A stretch of 64,000 nucleotides of DNA, taken from NCBI GenBank assembly GCA_021108185.1, contig JAIORJ010000088.1, positions 1-64,000 on the forward strand, given 5' to 3'. Origin of the DNA: Methanococcoides sp. (GTDB taxonomy: Archaea; Halobacteriota; Methanosarcinia; Methanosarcinales; Methanosarcinaceae). Within the stretch, counting starts at the first letter, position 1. Each line of letters starts with the position of its first letter. The translations under genes were made by a program, and so were the position numbers. A model generated the notes under the pieces. The model did not search any database and had not been told where the DNA came from. It was given only the letters and a program-made list of their open reading frames with translations. Below are positions 1 through 25,355 of this stretch, one piece after another.

Positions 1-494
1 CCAATATGTTACATGGGTGTGGGAGTTATATGGCATAGAGCGAGTTTGGGGACTTGTGGGGACGAGAATTCCACTAAAGGTGGCATTCTCTGATAAATGG
101 CTCCCATGCCCATGATCAAAGTAATCTTTTGCCTCTTTCATCCCCCAAGAATGCATAACAGATCCCTCCTCCATAGTATGATCCGTCCCAATCTCATAAC
201 CATCATGAATTAAGCGAAGCTCCCATTCGAGAAATGATTCTTTTGGGATTCTACCAAGTCCCGGATAGATCAGTTCGGAGGTATTCCACAGGCCACCTTC
301 ATATGGACCTGCACGGATGTATGACGAAAGATGACGGCACCGAATCCTTTGTGGTTGGTGTGTCGAGTGAGTTCCATCAGTTTACAAAACGATTTTCCAG
401 AGCCGGTGGTGTCTCCATATAGTACGATATCAGCAGTTGATTCCAGGAACTGGTGTTGCGGACCGGGTTGTGCTCTGATTTCAATCATTGACAT
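1..494 (-). pseudogene. Phage terminase large subunit, N-terminal remnant (frameshifted, cut by window edge)
   Basis: The start is intact: ATG at 494 with an AGAGGA-type ribosome site just upstream. The first ~62 codons read like a terminase ATPase, with a Walker A-like GDTTGSGKSF and then AVIFRHTSVQV. The frame then shifts near 307-312. The second frame continues with GPYEGGLWNTSELIYPGLGR and IPKESFLEW, the region following the first ATPase strand in phage terminases, and stays open to base 1. Similarity weakens towards the edge, and the last ~110 bases overlap repeat copy A in antisense. Dead prophage debris is the simplest reading. No other head or tail gene is visible. Confidence 0.6.
12..114 (+). 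repeat. Hairpin-forming repeat, copy A
   Basis: The outer stem pairs 12-25 with 101-114 (CATGGGTGTGGGAG with CTCCCATGCCCATG) using G-U pairs. The inner hairpin pairs GAGAAT (64-69) with ATTCTC (85-90) and CCAC (71-74) with GTGG (80-83) around a five-base loop. The intervening G-rich segment GCGAGTTTGGGGACTT is shared with copy C. Wobble pairs are valid only on the plus strand, so any folded RNA is read left to right. Upstream sequence lies outside the window. Confidence 0.6.
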
Positions 495-863: not shown

Positions 864-1050
864 TTCGAATAATAGTTAAGGAAATAAATATATCTTAAAA
901 TAATTAAACATCTTACCGCAATTGATTTTAACTTACAGGACAATACTTTGCTTGGGTGTGGGAGTCGTATGATATGAAGCGAGCTTGGGGCTTATGGGGG
1001 AGAGAGTTCACTTTAATGTGTATTCTCTGATTAAAGGCTCCTATACCCAT
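864..1050 (+). repeat. Hairpin-forming repeat, copy B, with AT-rich leader
   Basis: The outer stem GGGTGTGGGAG (954-964) pairs with CTCCTATACCC (1038-1048). The inner hairpin GAGAGT (1002-1007) pairs with ATTCTC (1022-1027), with CAC/GTG inside. Relative to copy A, the changed stem bases keep pairing. The ~85-base leader from TTCGAATAATAGTTA through CTTAAAATAATTAA is shared with copy C, which suggests a conserved promoter rather than simple drift. Confidence 0.6.
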
Positions 1051-1318
1051 TATTAAAATGATCATTGACCTTTTTCACCTGACATGGATACATAGTGCGG
1101 CTCTTGTGGGTCACTTCATACCCCTCAGGATCAATCTCAATACTATCACTGAGTTTTAATGTGTAAACAGTTGTCAGCCGTCGAGTACAAGTCAAATCAG
1201 GCTTATATCGAACATATAGAGGCCTATCAAGAGAATTATATTTAATTAATAAGGACTCTGTAGGGACTCTGTCTGAACCGCTATAAAATGAATAAAGGAA
1301 ATCTGATATATGAAACGC
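1031..1318 (-). pseudogene. Open coding-like remnant, unidentified
   Basis: This minus frame is open for 95 codons before TAA and reads like protein (RPLYVRYKPDLTCTRRL, later EIDPEGYEVTH and VKKVNDHFNNGYRSL). It lacks an upstream ATG and runs into the divergent gene at 1310. Its tail resembles the antisense frame beside copy A (GYEIGTDH, KEAKDYFDHGHGSHL). So the repeat may carry the 3' end of a decayed gene family as well as the hairpin. I do not recognise the family. Confidence 0.3.
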
Positions 1319-8631: not shown

Positions 8632-8820
8632 TTCGAATAATAGTTACAAGGAAAGAACTAACTTTTAAAATAATTAAGCATTTTATCGTAATCGTTTTTA
8701 ACCTATAAACCAATATAGTAAATGGGTATGGGAGTCTATAATACGAAGCGAGTTTGGGGACTTATGGGGGACGAGAATTACCAAAAAGGTGGTATTCTCT
8801 TATAATTGGCTCCTATGCCC
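8632..8820 (+). repeat. Hairpin-forming repeat, copy C, with AT-rich leader
   Basis: The leader from TTCGAATAATAGTTA to about 8710 matches copy B. The outer stem GGGTATGGGAG (8724-8734) pairs with CTCCTATGCCC (8810-8820). The inner hairpin GAGAAT (8773-8778) pairs with ATTCTC (8794-8799), with ACC/GGT around AAAAA. The G at stem position 5 in A and B is A here, still opposite U. Similarity to copy A continues to ~8910 in patches (CATAGTAT, AATTAAGC). This fills the gap 8459-8907, which has no gene. Confidence 0.6.
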
Positions 8821-8907
8821 TTATTGAAGTAATTTTTTATCTCTTTTATTTCTCTGTTATTAATCATAAGATTCTATTACATAGTATAATTCATACCATT
8901 TCATAAA

Positions 8908-10782: not shown

Positions 10783-12798
10783 ATGGAAACTGAAAATGAT
10801 CAATATTTACCAACCCTCATGGATTCCTTAATTGCTGGCATTGTGATCATTGATCAAGAAACTCATGAAATAATTGATGTAAATTCTACAGCTGCTGAGA
10901 TGATCGGTAGGCCAAGAGAACAAATTATTGGTAACACATGTCACAAATTCATCTGTCCTGCAGAAATGGGAAAATGTCCAATTAGTGACCTGAAGCTAAC
11001 TATCGATAGATCAGAACATGAACTGCTGATCGAAGGTGACAAAAAAATTCCAATTTTGAAAACTGCAACGTTGGTAAATAGAGATGATCGTCCGGTTATT
11101 GTCGAAAGTTTTTTTGATATCTCAAATATAAAGAATACAGAATCACGCCTTGTGAAGAAGCTTGAAATTGAAAAAGCAGTATCTTCTATTTCTTCTTTGT
11201 TTGTTTTTTCTGATGATATTGAGCATAATATCAATAAAGCTCTTGAGGATATCTCCAAAATATGTGAGAGCAGTCGAAGTTATATTTTTCTGTTCAATGA
11301 TGATGGAACTACGATGGATAATACGCATGAATATTGTAAAAAGGGTACTTCATGCCAAAAAGAAAACCTTCAGGATCTCCCCTTGGATATGTTCCCTTGG
11401 TGGATGAAAAAACTCAATAATGGCGAATCAATTTGCATTAGCGATGTCTCAGCTTTACCCGAAGAAGCATCGTCAGAGAAAGAGCTCCTTGAAATACAAG
11501 ATATTAGATCATTGCTAGTTTTTCCCCTTCATAAAAATAATAAGCTTGCTGGTTTCATCGGTTTGGACAATGTGGTGAATATTGGAGAGTGGGCAGAAGA
11601 GGACATTAGCCTTTTACGTATGGTAGCCAATATTATCGGAGCCAGTCTTGAGCACAATAAAGCAGAGAAGGCACTTAAGGCTAGCGAAAATAAGTACCAA
11701 ACGCTAGTCGAAAAAGGAAACGACGGGATAATCATTCTTCAAGATGGTCTAATAAAGTACGGGAACCAAACGATGGAGAGTATTACTGGCTTCTCTATCG
11801 AAGAAGAACTCGAAAACCCGTTCATTGATTTCATTTCACCTGAATACAAAGAACTTGTACAAGAAAGGTACATGAAGAGATTGAGGGGTGAAGAAGTCTC
11901 CACTAATTATGAGATTGAGATAATCTCAAAGGAAGGGGAAAAAATCCCTGTAGAGATAAGCCCATCTGCTATCGAATATGAAGGTAGATCAGCAGACATG
12001 GCAATCATAAGGGATGTTACTGAACGCAAGAAAGCAGAAAATGCAATGCTACAAGCAAAACTTGTGGCAGAAGCTGCCAACAGGACCAAATCTGAATTCC
12101 TTGCAAACATGAGCCATGAGCTGAGGACACCTTTAAATTCGATCATTGGTTTCTCGGATGTGATTAACAATGAAACTCACGGTTCTTTGAATGAGTCTCA
12201 GAAGAAATATATCTCTAATGTTCTTAGTAATGGAAAACATCTTTTGAATATTATCAATGACATTCTATCTACCTCAAAGATCGAATCTGGTAAGATGGAA
12301 CTTCATATAAGTGAATTCTTCGTATCCGACACTATTAATGAGGTCGAAGCATTGATGATGCCTATTGCATCAGAGAAAGATATTGACATAAGCTGTGACA
12401 TTGACATTGGAATGCCTGTCATAAAAGCAGACATGATCAAATTCAAGCAGATAGTTTACAACCTCGTGAACAATGCCATTAAGTTCACCGATCAAGGTGG
12501 GGCAGTGACAATCGAGGGTAAGATCTCAGATGACTTCCTGTATATTTCTATAAAAGACTGTGGCATTGGTATTTCACCAAAGGATCAGGATAAATTGTTC
12601 AATCCTTTTTTTCAAGTGGAATCTTCATTTAATAGAAGCTATGGGGGCACTGGTCTTGGCCTTTCGATTGTTAAGAAGTTTGTTGAAATGCATGGTGGCG
12701 AGATCTGGGTTGAAAGTGAAGTTGGAAATGGAAGTAAGTTCACTTTTTCCATTCCAACCGCTCCTCTGAATTCGAACCTTCAGGATATCAGTATATGA
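10783..12798 (+). CDS. Soluble PAS-GAF-PAS sensor histidine kinase
   Basis: 671 residues without membrane segments. Order: PAS with three cysteines (C53, C58, C65 in CHKFICP...GKCP; residues 1-115), GAF (about 130-290), PAS (300-418), a short coiled linker, HisKA with the phospho-acceptor His445 in [11 protein letters not shown], and HATPase with GGTGLGLSIVKKF. The cysteines suggest redox or metal sensing. No response regulator is adjacent, which is common in methanogens. An 80-base block around the HisKA start is identical to one in the kinase at 14000. Confidence 0.88.
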   Translation: METENDQYLPTLMDSLIAGIVIIDQETHEIIDVNSTAAEMIGRPREQIIGNTCHKFICPAEMGKCPISDLKLTIDRSEHELLIEGDKKIPILKTATLVNRDDRPVIVESFFDISNIKNTESRLVKKLEIEKAVSSISSLFVFSDDIEHNINKALEDISKICESSRSYIFLFNDDGTTMDNTHEYCKKGTSCQKENLQDLPLDMFPWWMKKLNNGESICISDVSALPEEASSEKELLEIQDIRSLLVFPLHKNNKLAGFIGLDNVVNIGEWAEEDISLLRMVANIIGASLEHNKAEKALKASENKYQTLVEKGNDGIIILQDGLIKYGNQTMESITGFSIEEELENPFIDFISPEYKELVQERYMKRLRGEEVSTNYEIEIISKEGEKIPVEISPSAIEYEGRSADMAIIRDVTERKKAENAMLQAKLVAEAANRTKSEFLANMSHELRTPLNSIIGFSDVINNETHGSLNESQKKYISNVLSNGKHLLNIINDILSTSKIESGKMELHISEFFVSDTINEVEALMMPIASEKDIDISCDIDIGMPVIKADMIKFKQIVYNLVNNAIKFTDQGGAVTIEGKISDDFLYISIKDCGIGISPKDQDKLFNPFFQVESSFNRSYGGTGLGLSIVKKFVEMHGGEIWVESEVGNGSKFTFSIPTAPLNSNLQDISI

Positions 12799-13017
12799 TT
12801 TGCTGAATAATCATTTTTACATTTTTGTTCCAGTACAGAAACACTTTCCGCTTCTACTCTTCGAAGAGATCCACAGTAGTTTCAACAAGCTCTGAATCTC
12901 AAAATCATGGGTCATATTGTTGCTGAACTAATTAAAAGTATTTTGCCATACAAAAAAGTAAGGATATAAATCCAAGCAGATCCAATACAATATAGTTATT
13001 CTCGGAGAATCAGATAT

Positions 13018-13866
13018 ATGATACCTGTCGAATTCCTTGTGGTTTTTTTTGGCCTCATGTCAGCTATGTGTTGGGGTGCCGGAGATTTCAGTGGAGGATT
13101 TGCATCAAAACGTGCAAATGTCTATAGTGTTGTTCTGATAACCCAAATAGTTGGTATTTTACTTCTTGCATTTTCAGCCCATTTAATGGCAGAAGAGATG
13201 CCACCTTTTGGTGGTATGGCCTGGGGAGCAGTTGCAGGAGTTTTCATAGGCATTGGACTTCTGGCCCTTTATCGTGGTCTTTCACAGGGCAATATGGGTT
13301 TTGTTGCACCCATTTCAGCAATAGTGGCAGCTTCAGTACCAGTCATCTACGGCACTTTTTACGAAGGATTGCCTGCTGTTCATCAAATGGTCGGTTTTGC
13401 TTTCGCACTTGTAGCAGTCTGGCTCATTGCTGGTGGAGGCGATGGGAACAGTAAAATTGAACGCACCGATCTCATACTTCCACTGATCGCTGGGATGGGG
13501 TTTGGATTATTTTTCATATCCATCGACAAAGTTAGTGATACGGCTATACTCTGGCCTCTTACTGCTGCAAGGATAGCAGCAGCTATAACATTGATCTTAT
13601 TTATAGCACTAAAAAAACAGGTATATATCCCACCCAAAAGTGTCCTTCCCATCATTGTCATTGCCGGAATCTTTGATACAGGAGGAAATACCTTTTTTGC
13701 TTTTGCATCTCAGGCAGGTCGACTCGACATAGCATCTATCACTTCTTCCCTCTACCCTGCAGGGACAGTGTTGCTTGCATGGTTTATACTCAAAGAAAAG
13801 CTTTCTTCAAAACAATGGTTAGGTTTGGCTGCTGCTTTGCTTGCGATTATATTTATTTCGGTTTGA
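13018..13866 (+). CDS. EamA/DMT family transporter
   Basis: About ten hydrophobic segments in 282 residues with an internal duplication characteristic of the drug/metabolite transporter superfamily (GDFSGGFASKRAN near the start, a second EamA half from ~residue 145). The substrate cannot be told from sequence; relatives export amino acids or metabolites. It stands alone between two kinase genes. Start ATG at 13018 follows CGGAGAATC. Confidence 0.8.
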   Translation: MIPVEFLVVFFGLMSAMCWGAGDFSGGFASKRANVYSVVLITQIVGILLLAFSAHLMAEEMPPFGGMAWGAVAGVFIGIGLLALYRGLSQGNMGFVAPISAIVAASVPVIYGTFYEGLPAVHQMVGFAFALVAVWLIAGGGDGNSKIERTDLILPLIAGMGFGLFFISIDKVSDTAILWPLTAARIAAAITLILFIALKKQVYIPPKSVLPIIVIAGIFDTGGNTFFAFASQAGRLDIASITSSLYPAGTVLLAWFILKEKLSSKQWLGLAAALLAIIFISV

Positions 13867-25061: not shown

Positions 25062-25355
25062 TCTTCAATTCATTTTTAAGTGACTCAAACTAAATTCCAT
25101 AATCATCTTTTTTTGTGAATGCTTGGATCAGCATTAATATTTCAAGATCTTAAGAAATTAAAATGTTTATCACAGTGTCTCTATTATTAATATCCGAATT
25201 ATTGCAACTACAATTGGATCTTCCTTTGTATCTTCTAAGGTCAATTTGACTTTCCTATACACAATGGATGTTCATTACTGGATCAGATTCGAAGTTCATC
25301 AAACTTTAAGTAGAAATAGCGACATATTGCTAATTATTAGTAAGTGGGGAATTAA

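Follow-up and report, generated by a model that had tools for sequence, protein, structure and literature searches.

Candidate small RNA genes in Methanococcoides and their predicted pairing with a conserved C-rich RNA

The window analyzed here, a stretch of 64,000 nucleotides from Methanococcoides sp., carries three diverged copies (A, B and C; Table 1) of an element designated type I. These copies are almost certainly real structured RNA genes. Each is predicted to encode a plus-strand RNA of ~100–115 nt, in which a 13-bp closing stem surrounds two hairpins, with transcription deduced from promoter-like and structural features. The best-conserved part of type I mirrors a second RNA, designated RNA III, so type I is probably a decoy for RNA III. 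On the sequence evidence, we place the probability that type I is a trans-encoded antisense or sponge RNA against RNA III at roughly 0.6.

The original prediction described three diverged copies of a hairpin element, an AT-rich leader shared by B and C, and a series of base changes compatible with pairing, all of which were found again in this analysis. The copies lie in direct orientation, with pairwise identities of 75–79%. The changes named were likewise present: G-U/A-U at pair 5, the one-sided exchanges G-C/G-U and U-G/U-A, and GAGAAT to GAGAGT. A BLAST search of the whole genome with copy A returned only A, B and C and one weak 23-nt match on contig C7. Base 1 of the window is also base 1 of its contig (C2), and copy A sits at this contig edge, with its upstream region out of view. 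The leader of B and C is real, and in both copies the heptamer TTTTAAC precedes the first G of the stem by 28 nt. In an alignment of 17 sequences, the flanks were observed to diverge and a C..A....TTTAAC block and an AACcAATATA leader to be conserved; orthologues of copy A in other species do carry the leader. Judged by known archaeal promoter spacing, TTTTAAC fits a BRE/TATA-like box with a putative transcription start at the stem base. T-rich stretches lie 3' of the type I stem.

Table 1. Positions of the type I copies and their parts in the window, of a neighboring provirus remnant, and of the RNA III loci of the same genome (G000).
Feature	Position	Strand	Remarks
Type I RNA copy A	1..115	+	putative transcribed part 15 to ~115; promoter off contig
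Copy A outer stem, 5' arm	15..27	+	partner 99-111
Copy A outer stem, 3' arm	99..111	+	partner 15-27
Copy A segment GAGCGAGTTTGGGGA	38..52	+	perfect 15-nt reverse complement of RNA III (G000:C7)
Copy A second segment GTGGGG	56..61	+	also complementary to RNA III C-tract
Provirus terminase large subunit remnant, N-terminal part	270..494	-	in the A–B interval, outside the RNA; PHROG 979, E 1.5e-12
Copy B TATA-like box TTTTAAC	926..932	+	kept in 17-sequence alignment
Type I RNA copy B	940..1053	+	putative transcript from about 954
Copy B outer stem, 5' arm	954..966	+	partner 1036-1048
Copy B segment AGCGAGCTTGGGG	978..990	+	RNA III complement except at one position
Copy B outer stem, 3' arm	1036..1048	+	partner 954-966
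Copy C TATA-like box TTTTAAC	8696..8702	+	
Type I RNA copy C	8710..8822	+	putative transcript from about 8724
Copy C outer stem, 5' arm	8724..8736	+	partner 8808-8820
Copy C segment AGCGAGTTTGGGGA	8747..8760	+	14 nt, exact reverse complement of RNA III
Copy C outer stem, 3' arm	8808..8820	+	partner 8724-8736
RNA III main locus	G000:C7:63073-63169	-	L188; also L185-L214
Further RNA III copies, ~660 nt apart	G000:C12:24583-24672 and 25249-25337	-	L223, L230; stem AUGAGCGGG/CCCGCUCAU

The fold and its strand are supported by several measures. Against dinucleotide shuffles, the plus-strand fold z scores were -3.8, -2.9 and -2.5 for A, B and C, respectively, and the minus-strand scores were weaker (-2.7, -1.6 and -0.5). 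When the outer and inner stems were scored across 21 type I copies from nine genomes, the stem cells read on the plus strand comprised 300 Watson-Crick pairs, 73 G·U and 5 A·C. Since the minus strand would swap the last two counts, this asymmetry indicates a plus-strand RNA, unlike a DNA inverted repeat, and agrees with the proposal that pairing is kept on the plus strand only. The outer stem was 97.4% paired across these copies, in keeping with its conservation despite base changes. The whole named structure was 87.3% paired, versus 37–59% after sliding by 1–3 columns. Significant covariation was not obtained: the type I score was matched by 87 of 500 column shuffles, i.e., it is not above chance. 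Outer-stem changes are of wobble type and affect one side, and two-sided changes occur at five inner-helix pairs. With the arms of type I pooled with those of a second class, type II, 96.3% were paired, more than in any of 1000 arm shuffles; the alignment across the classes is positional, and the classes are related groups. The view that type I is a structured small RNA, read from the plus strand under its own promoter, is upheld by the strand asymmetry, the box at fixed spacing and the unrelated gene neighborhoods. It also matches no named family, in line with the original prediction, which could not assign it to one: the Rfam 15 covariance models gave no match in the window at gathering score, relaxed thresholds gave sub-threshold chance matches elsewhere in the window (E up to 10), and a tRNA/tmRNA search returned none.

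Relatives were searched for type I at the DNA level in 200 genomes and with a covariance model (R1). This model gave 22 strong matches (≤ 3e-18) in 9 of the 11 Methanococcoides genomes and none in 101 other genomes of the family, with stricter filters applied for large sets. Type I was likewise found in none of four genomes of genus g4, presumed to be Methanolobus, and three of genus g3, nor in two Methanococcoides genomes (G007 and G010) in which RNA III is present. A pattern scan of contigs recovered type I from Methanococcoides, including M. vulcani, M. seepicolus and M. alaskense; single isolated pattern matches in bacteria were taken as chance. Genomes with type I have one to five strong copies, and the distance between them is often tens of kilobases or less. 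In G005, type I occupies C1:528419-528555, 532176-532307 and 552925-553060, and RNA III C1:1859559-1859657. Their gene neighborhoods vary across species, with one syntenic place common to four genomes. No shared neighbor gene of the kind expected for a riboswitch, guide-RNA or retron-type partner was found.

The weak 23-nt match of copy A falls on the C7 locus later called RNA III, whose sequence all 11 Methanococcoides genomes retain, as do many further genomes from the same family and order. RNA III consists of a 10-bp stem closing a C-rich loop with UAACCCCCCACUCCCCAAA, and the loop sequence ACCCCCCACUCCCC is nearly invariant across families. The RNA is assigned to the minus strand of the 23-nt match because all 190 of 190 stem cells pair on that strand (18 G·U, 0 A·C) and because a TATA-like box lies at a near-fixed ~29–31 nt (counted by eye) before the stem in species with otherwise unlike flanks. 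In most of the family, RNA III is flanked by dnaG on one side and a flavoprotein gene on the other, both named from their translations; in other families its location differs. With a covariance model (R2), RNA III was detected in 175 of the order's 186 genomes; among the 118 of good quality, 117 had it. Across the phylum, matches to the same model were confined to one class: within the order, 74 of 75 sampled genomes had RNA III, a sister family contributed 19 of 20, and about 298 other genomes sampled gave none, by counts from a listing that shows part of the genomes without a match. Rfam 15 holds no relevant family matching the RNA III loci. RNA III may already be present in M. mazei transcriptome tables. 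R2 identified three loci in the genome of the window, one on C7 and two on C12. These matches include no type I copy, and type I is complementary to RNA III rather than its same-strand homologue. Sets like the C12 pair were also seen in other species of the genus, and up to 19 RNA III matches in one genome of another family (G158). Relatives with two tandem ACCCCCCACUCCCC-like C-rich motifs per loop were seen at L225 (G039:C1:770436-770547) and L226 (G013:C1:505390-505491).

The sponge reading builds on complementarity between the two RNAs. The type I sequence AGCGAGUUUGGGGA is the exact reverse complement of UCCCCAAACUCGCU in RNA III, and the 13 columns in which type I varies least, AGCGAGUUUGGGG in copy A, are antisense to RNA III. 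The conservation of the complementary segment (0.971 versus a type I mean of 0.82) is that of the top 13-column window, and the opposite strand of the type I hairpin drifts (0.62–0.90). The perfect complementary run is 15 nt in copy A and 14 nt in copy C, and these lengths were reached by 0 of 3000 dinucleotide shuffles of RNA III and 0 of 3827 window tiles. Copy B, with one mismatch, has a longest perfect run of 8 nt, which is not significant in the full-length run test. The two RNA III copies on C12 match type I over 7 nt only, indicating that the complement is specific to the C7 form. The pattern GCGAGYTTGGGG occurs at 30 places in the 11 genus genomes, all of them by coordinates type I copies or RNA III antisense, compared with five scattered matches for the reversed pattern. 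A second complementary piece, R-UGGGG (GUGGGG or AUGGGG), is retained in 20 of 21 copies at varying distance. Taken alone, the 23-nt match is not significant genome-wide (E 0.6), so the case rests on where the match falls; as a rough estimate, the odds of a chance 14-nt match landing on both a conserved sRNA and the best-conserved type I segment are well under one in a thousand. Two properties looked for in sponge RNAs, a long complementary match to a conserved sRNA encoded in the same genome and selective retention of the complementary segment, were both observed for type I.

Computed energetics are consistent with such a contact. After payment of the opening costs, the net pairing energies at 37°C were -8.2, -2.7 and -10.4 kcal/mol for A, B and C, respectively; pairing was computed to be stronger at 4–20°C, and that of B is marginal at 37°C. 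In the computed ensembles, three of the four G's of the copy A loop GGGG and the C-tract of RNA III were each more than 90% unpaired. Weighing against the contact, opening the RNA III stem was calculated to cost about 12 kcal/mol. In the proposed mechanism, the type I hairpin would present a UUUGGGG loop beside a GUGGGG linker, and loop, linker and the stem strand GCGAG would complement the C-rich loop of RNA III and the 3' strand of its stem (CCCCACUCCCCAAACUCGCU). A GGGG:CCCC loop-loop contact would start the pairing, which would then extend into GCGAG:CUCGC, open the RNA III hairpin and hide its C-tract. Type I would thereby remove RNA III from its own targets. RNA III itself may target mRNAs at G-rich sites, ribosome binding sites among them. 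Described methanogen sRNAs often mask ribosome binding sites (PMC5867862, PMC6560208), and the C-rich loop may by extension do likewise to G-rich leaders. Any control exerted by type I would be non-essential, given the two genus genomes that have RNA III but not type I.

Could the G-rich loops of type I instead be direct binding sites for a protein or for mRNAs? In that case, the match to RNA III would reflect common origin, with type I derived partly from the opposite strand of an RNA III gene, or a shared target motif, with no mutual action. This explanation, which we regard as rather doubtful, draws on the fact that the structure and strand evidence for type I needs no partner RNA, on the common use of conserved G-rich loops as protein sites, and on the tolerated mismatch in copy B. 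Against it, no stretch of type I is better conserved than the complementary segment, which has no other place of occurrence in the 11 genomes, and a second complementary piece is retained at variable distance. Moreover, RNA III is predicted to be transcribed from the opposite strand, so a shared protein motif of the same sequence would be absent from it. The shared segment could indeed stem from common origin rather than from a selected contact, but the two RNAs would be complementary all the same.

Weak matches to R1 revealed the type II class, which shares the type I leader (AACnAATATATnATRTGGGAG) and is closed by a longer stem. Type II stands beside type I in tandem arrays with ~200-nt spacing in two genomes (G002 and G004), folds well, and was confined to this genus in a search with model R3; the genome of the window has no true type II, its R3 match being copy C. 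Arrayed or single type II loci were observed at L043:7362-7966, L041:7080-7203 (-), L037:8595-8923 (-), L087:6356, L088:7481 (-) and L092:6712 (-), and a conserved CCAGAAAAACG near the 3' side of type II. Among the weak repeats inspected, no complementary partner for type II was found, these being inside protein genes or broken type II copies. Two viral matches to type II patterns have neither stem nor leader and were taken as chance. Isolated 3' halves of type II genes were seen at L043:8303-8347 and L154 (G009:C77), one of them near provirus tail genes, and look as if, in the manner of tRNA genes, these RNA genes were used for integration. Decayed provirus genes identified with PHROGs (terminase large subunit and integrase) adjoin type I in the window (Table 1) and at L036:8694-9281 (-) and 12789-13052 (-).

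These neighbors bear on whether a mobile element or provirus carries the copies, at its ends or as passengers, in which case the stem would be a terminal inverted repeat or an attachment site and would have no function as RNA. Such an origin would fit the terminase remnant in the A–B interval, fragments of terminase and integrase genes near the G009 copies, a tail gene near the G004 array and the broken type II halves beside provirus genes, yet we consider it very unlikely. The arms diverge by G·U in one orientation (73 versus 5), whereas a MITE-like element would show equal complementarity on both strands; the internal sequence is conserved, as is the promoter box upstream of it; mobile genes are absent beside most copies, and some copies are syntenic in four species; and the type I pattern occurs in no viral contig and element C in no phage record. 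The possibility raised with the original prediction, that the copies would turn out to be ends of a mobile element, was therefore not borne out, although provirus remnants adjoin some of them. A provirus origin of the RNA genes is made possible by this A–B terminase remnant and by the phage-type gene fragments at the G009 copies, although several copies have no such neighbors. Very tentatively, type I may comprise provirus-derived decoys that captured RNA III antisense sequence and were then kept and duplicated by Methanococcoides, the arrays of type I and type II forming a growing set of decoys against different RNAs; this scenario is speculative and on balance improbable.

It is also conceivable, though highly improbable in our judgment, that RNA III is a protein-bound structural RNA and that type I affects how RNA III is assembled or turned over, not its access to targets. 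The nearly invariant loop would suit such a role, as mRNA targets would be expected to vary, and so would the many RNA III copies of some genomes, such as the 19 in G158. However, RNA III has no known protein partner, and a C-rich single-stranded loop is also suited to pairing with G-rich sites. That type I copies, being intergenic, structured and promoter-proximal, are cis-acting leaders (riboswitch-like or attenuator) of neighboring genes is scarcely credible, since the downstream genes vary by copy and species and several copies face the 3' ends of genes.

What would a sponge function of type I mean? If this reading is right, type I and RNA III form an sRNA-against-sRNA pair in archaea; among the titles returned from the open-access literature on sRNA sponges, all concern bacteria and none an archaeal case. 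If the provirus-decoy scenario is true, type I would further be an archaeal counterpart of phage-encoded anti-sRNAs. The reach of RNA III and its almost invariant C-rich loop point to a core function in methane-producing and related archaea, which is testable in genetically workable Methanosarcina, and pairing with type I would offer a natural handle on the active site of RNA III.

Several known systems resemble parts of this picture. In Methanolobus psychrophilus, nine cold-induced conserved sRNAs with a 'cold box' have been described (PMC5378194); compared by description, they resemble type I as a conserved set in a psychrophilic relative sharing a promoter-side motif, whereas type I had no match in the four g4 genomes tested. 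The M. mazei sRNA41 and sRNA154, both from Methanosarcinaceae, are said to mask ribosome binding sites, and the C-rich RNA III could act in that way, again as compared by description only (PMC5867862). The M. mazei sRNA162 and sRNA171 are, like type I, structured intergenic methanogen sRNAs from the same family that have been duplicated with their promoters, but they are 191 nt long, reported in Methanosarcina only, and target mRNAs, and they are not claimed to match type I or RNA III (PMC3510493). The nearest functional likeness is AgvB, a bacteriophage-encoded anti-sRNA against GcvB in E. coli, which is experimentally shown and Hfq-linked (PMC4104026). Type I differs from AgvB in being archaeal and multi-copy, in its long closing stem and in that its pairing is predicted, and no sequence relation is claimed. 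What the type I model shares with AgvB is a small RNA that pairs with a conserved host sRNA and relieves the targets of that sRNA, as well as a phage connection, AgvB being phage-encoded and some type I copies sitting in provirus remnants.
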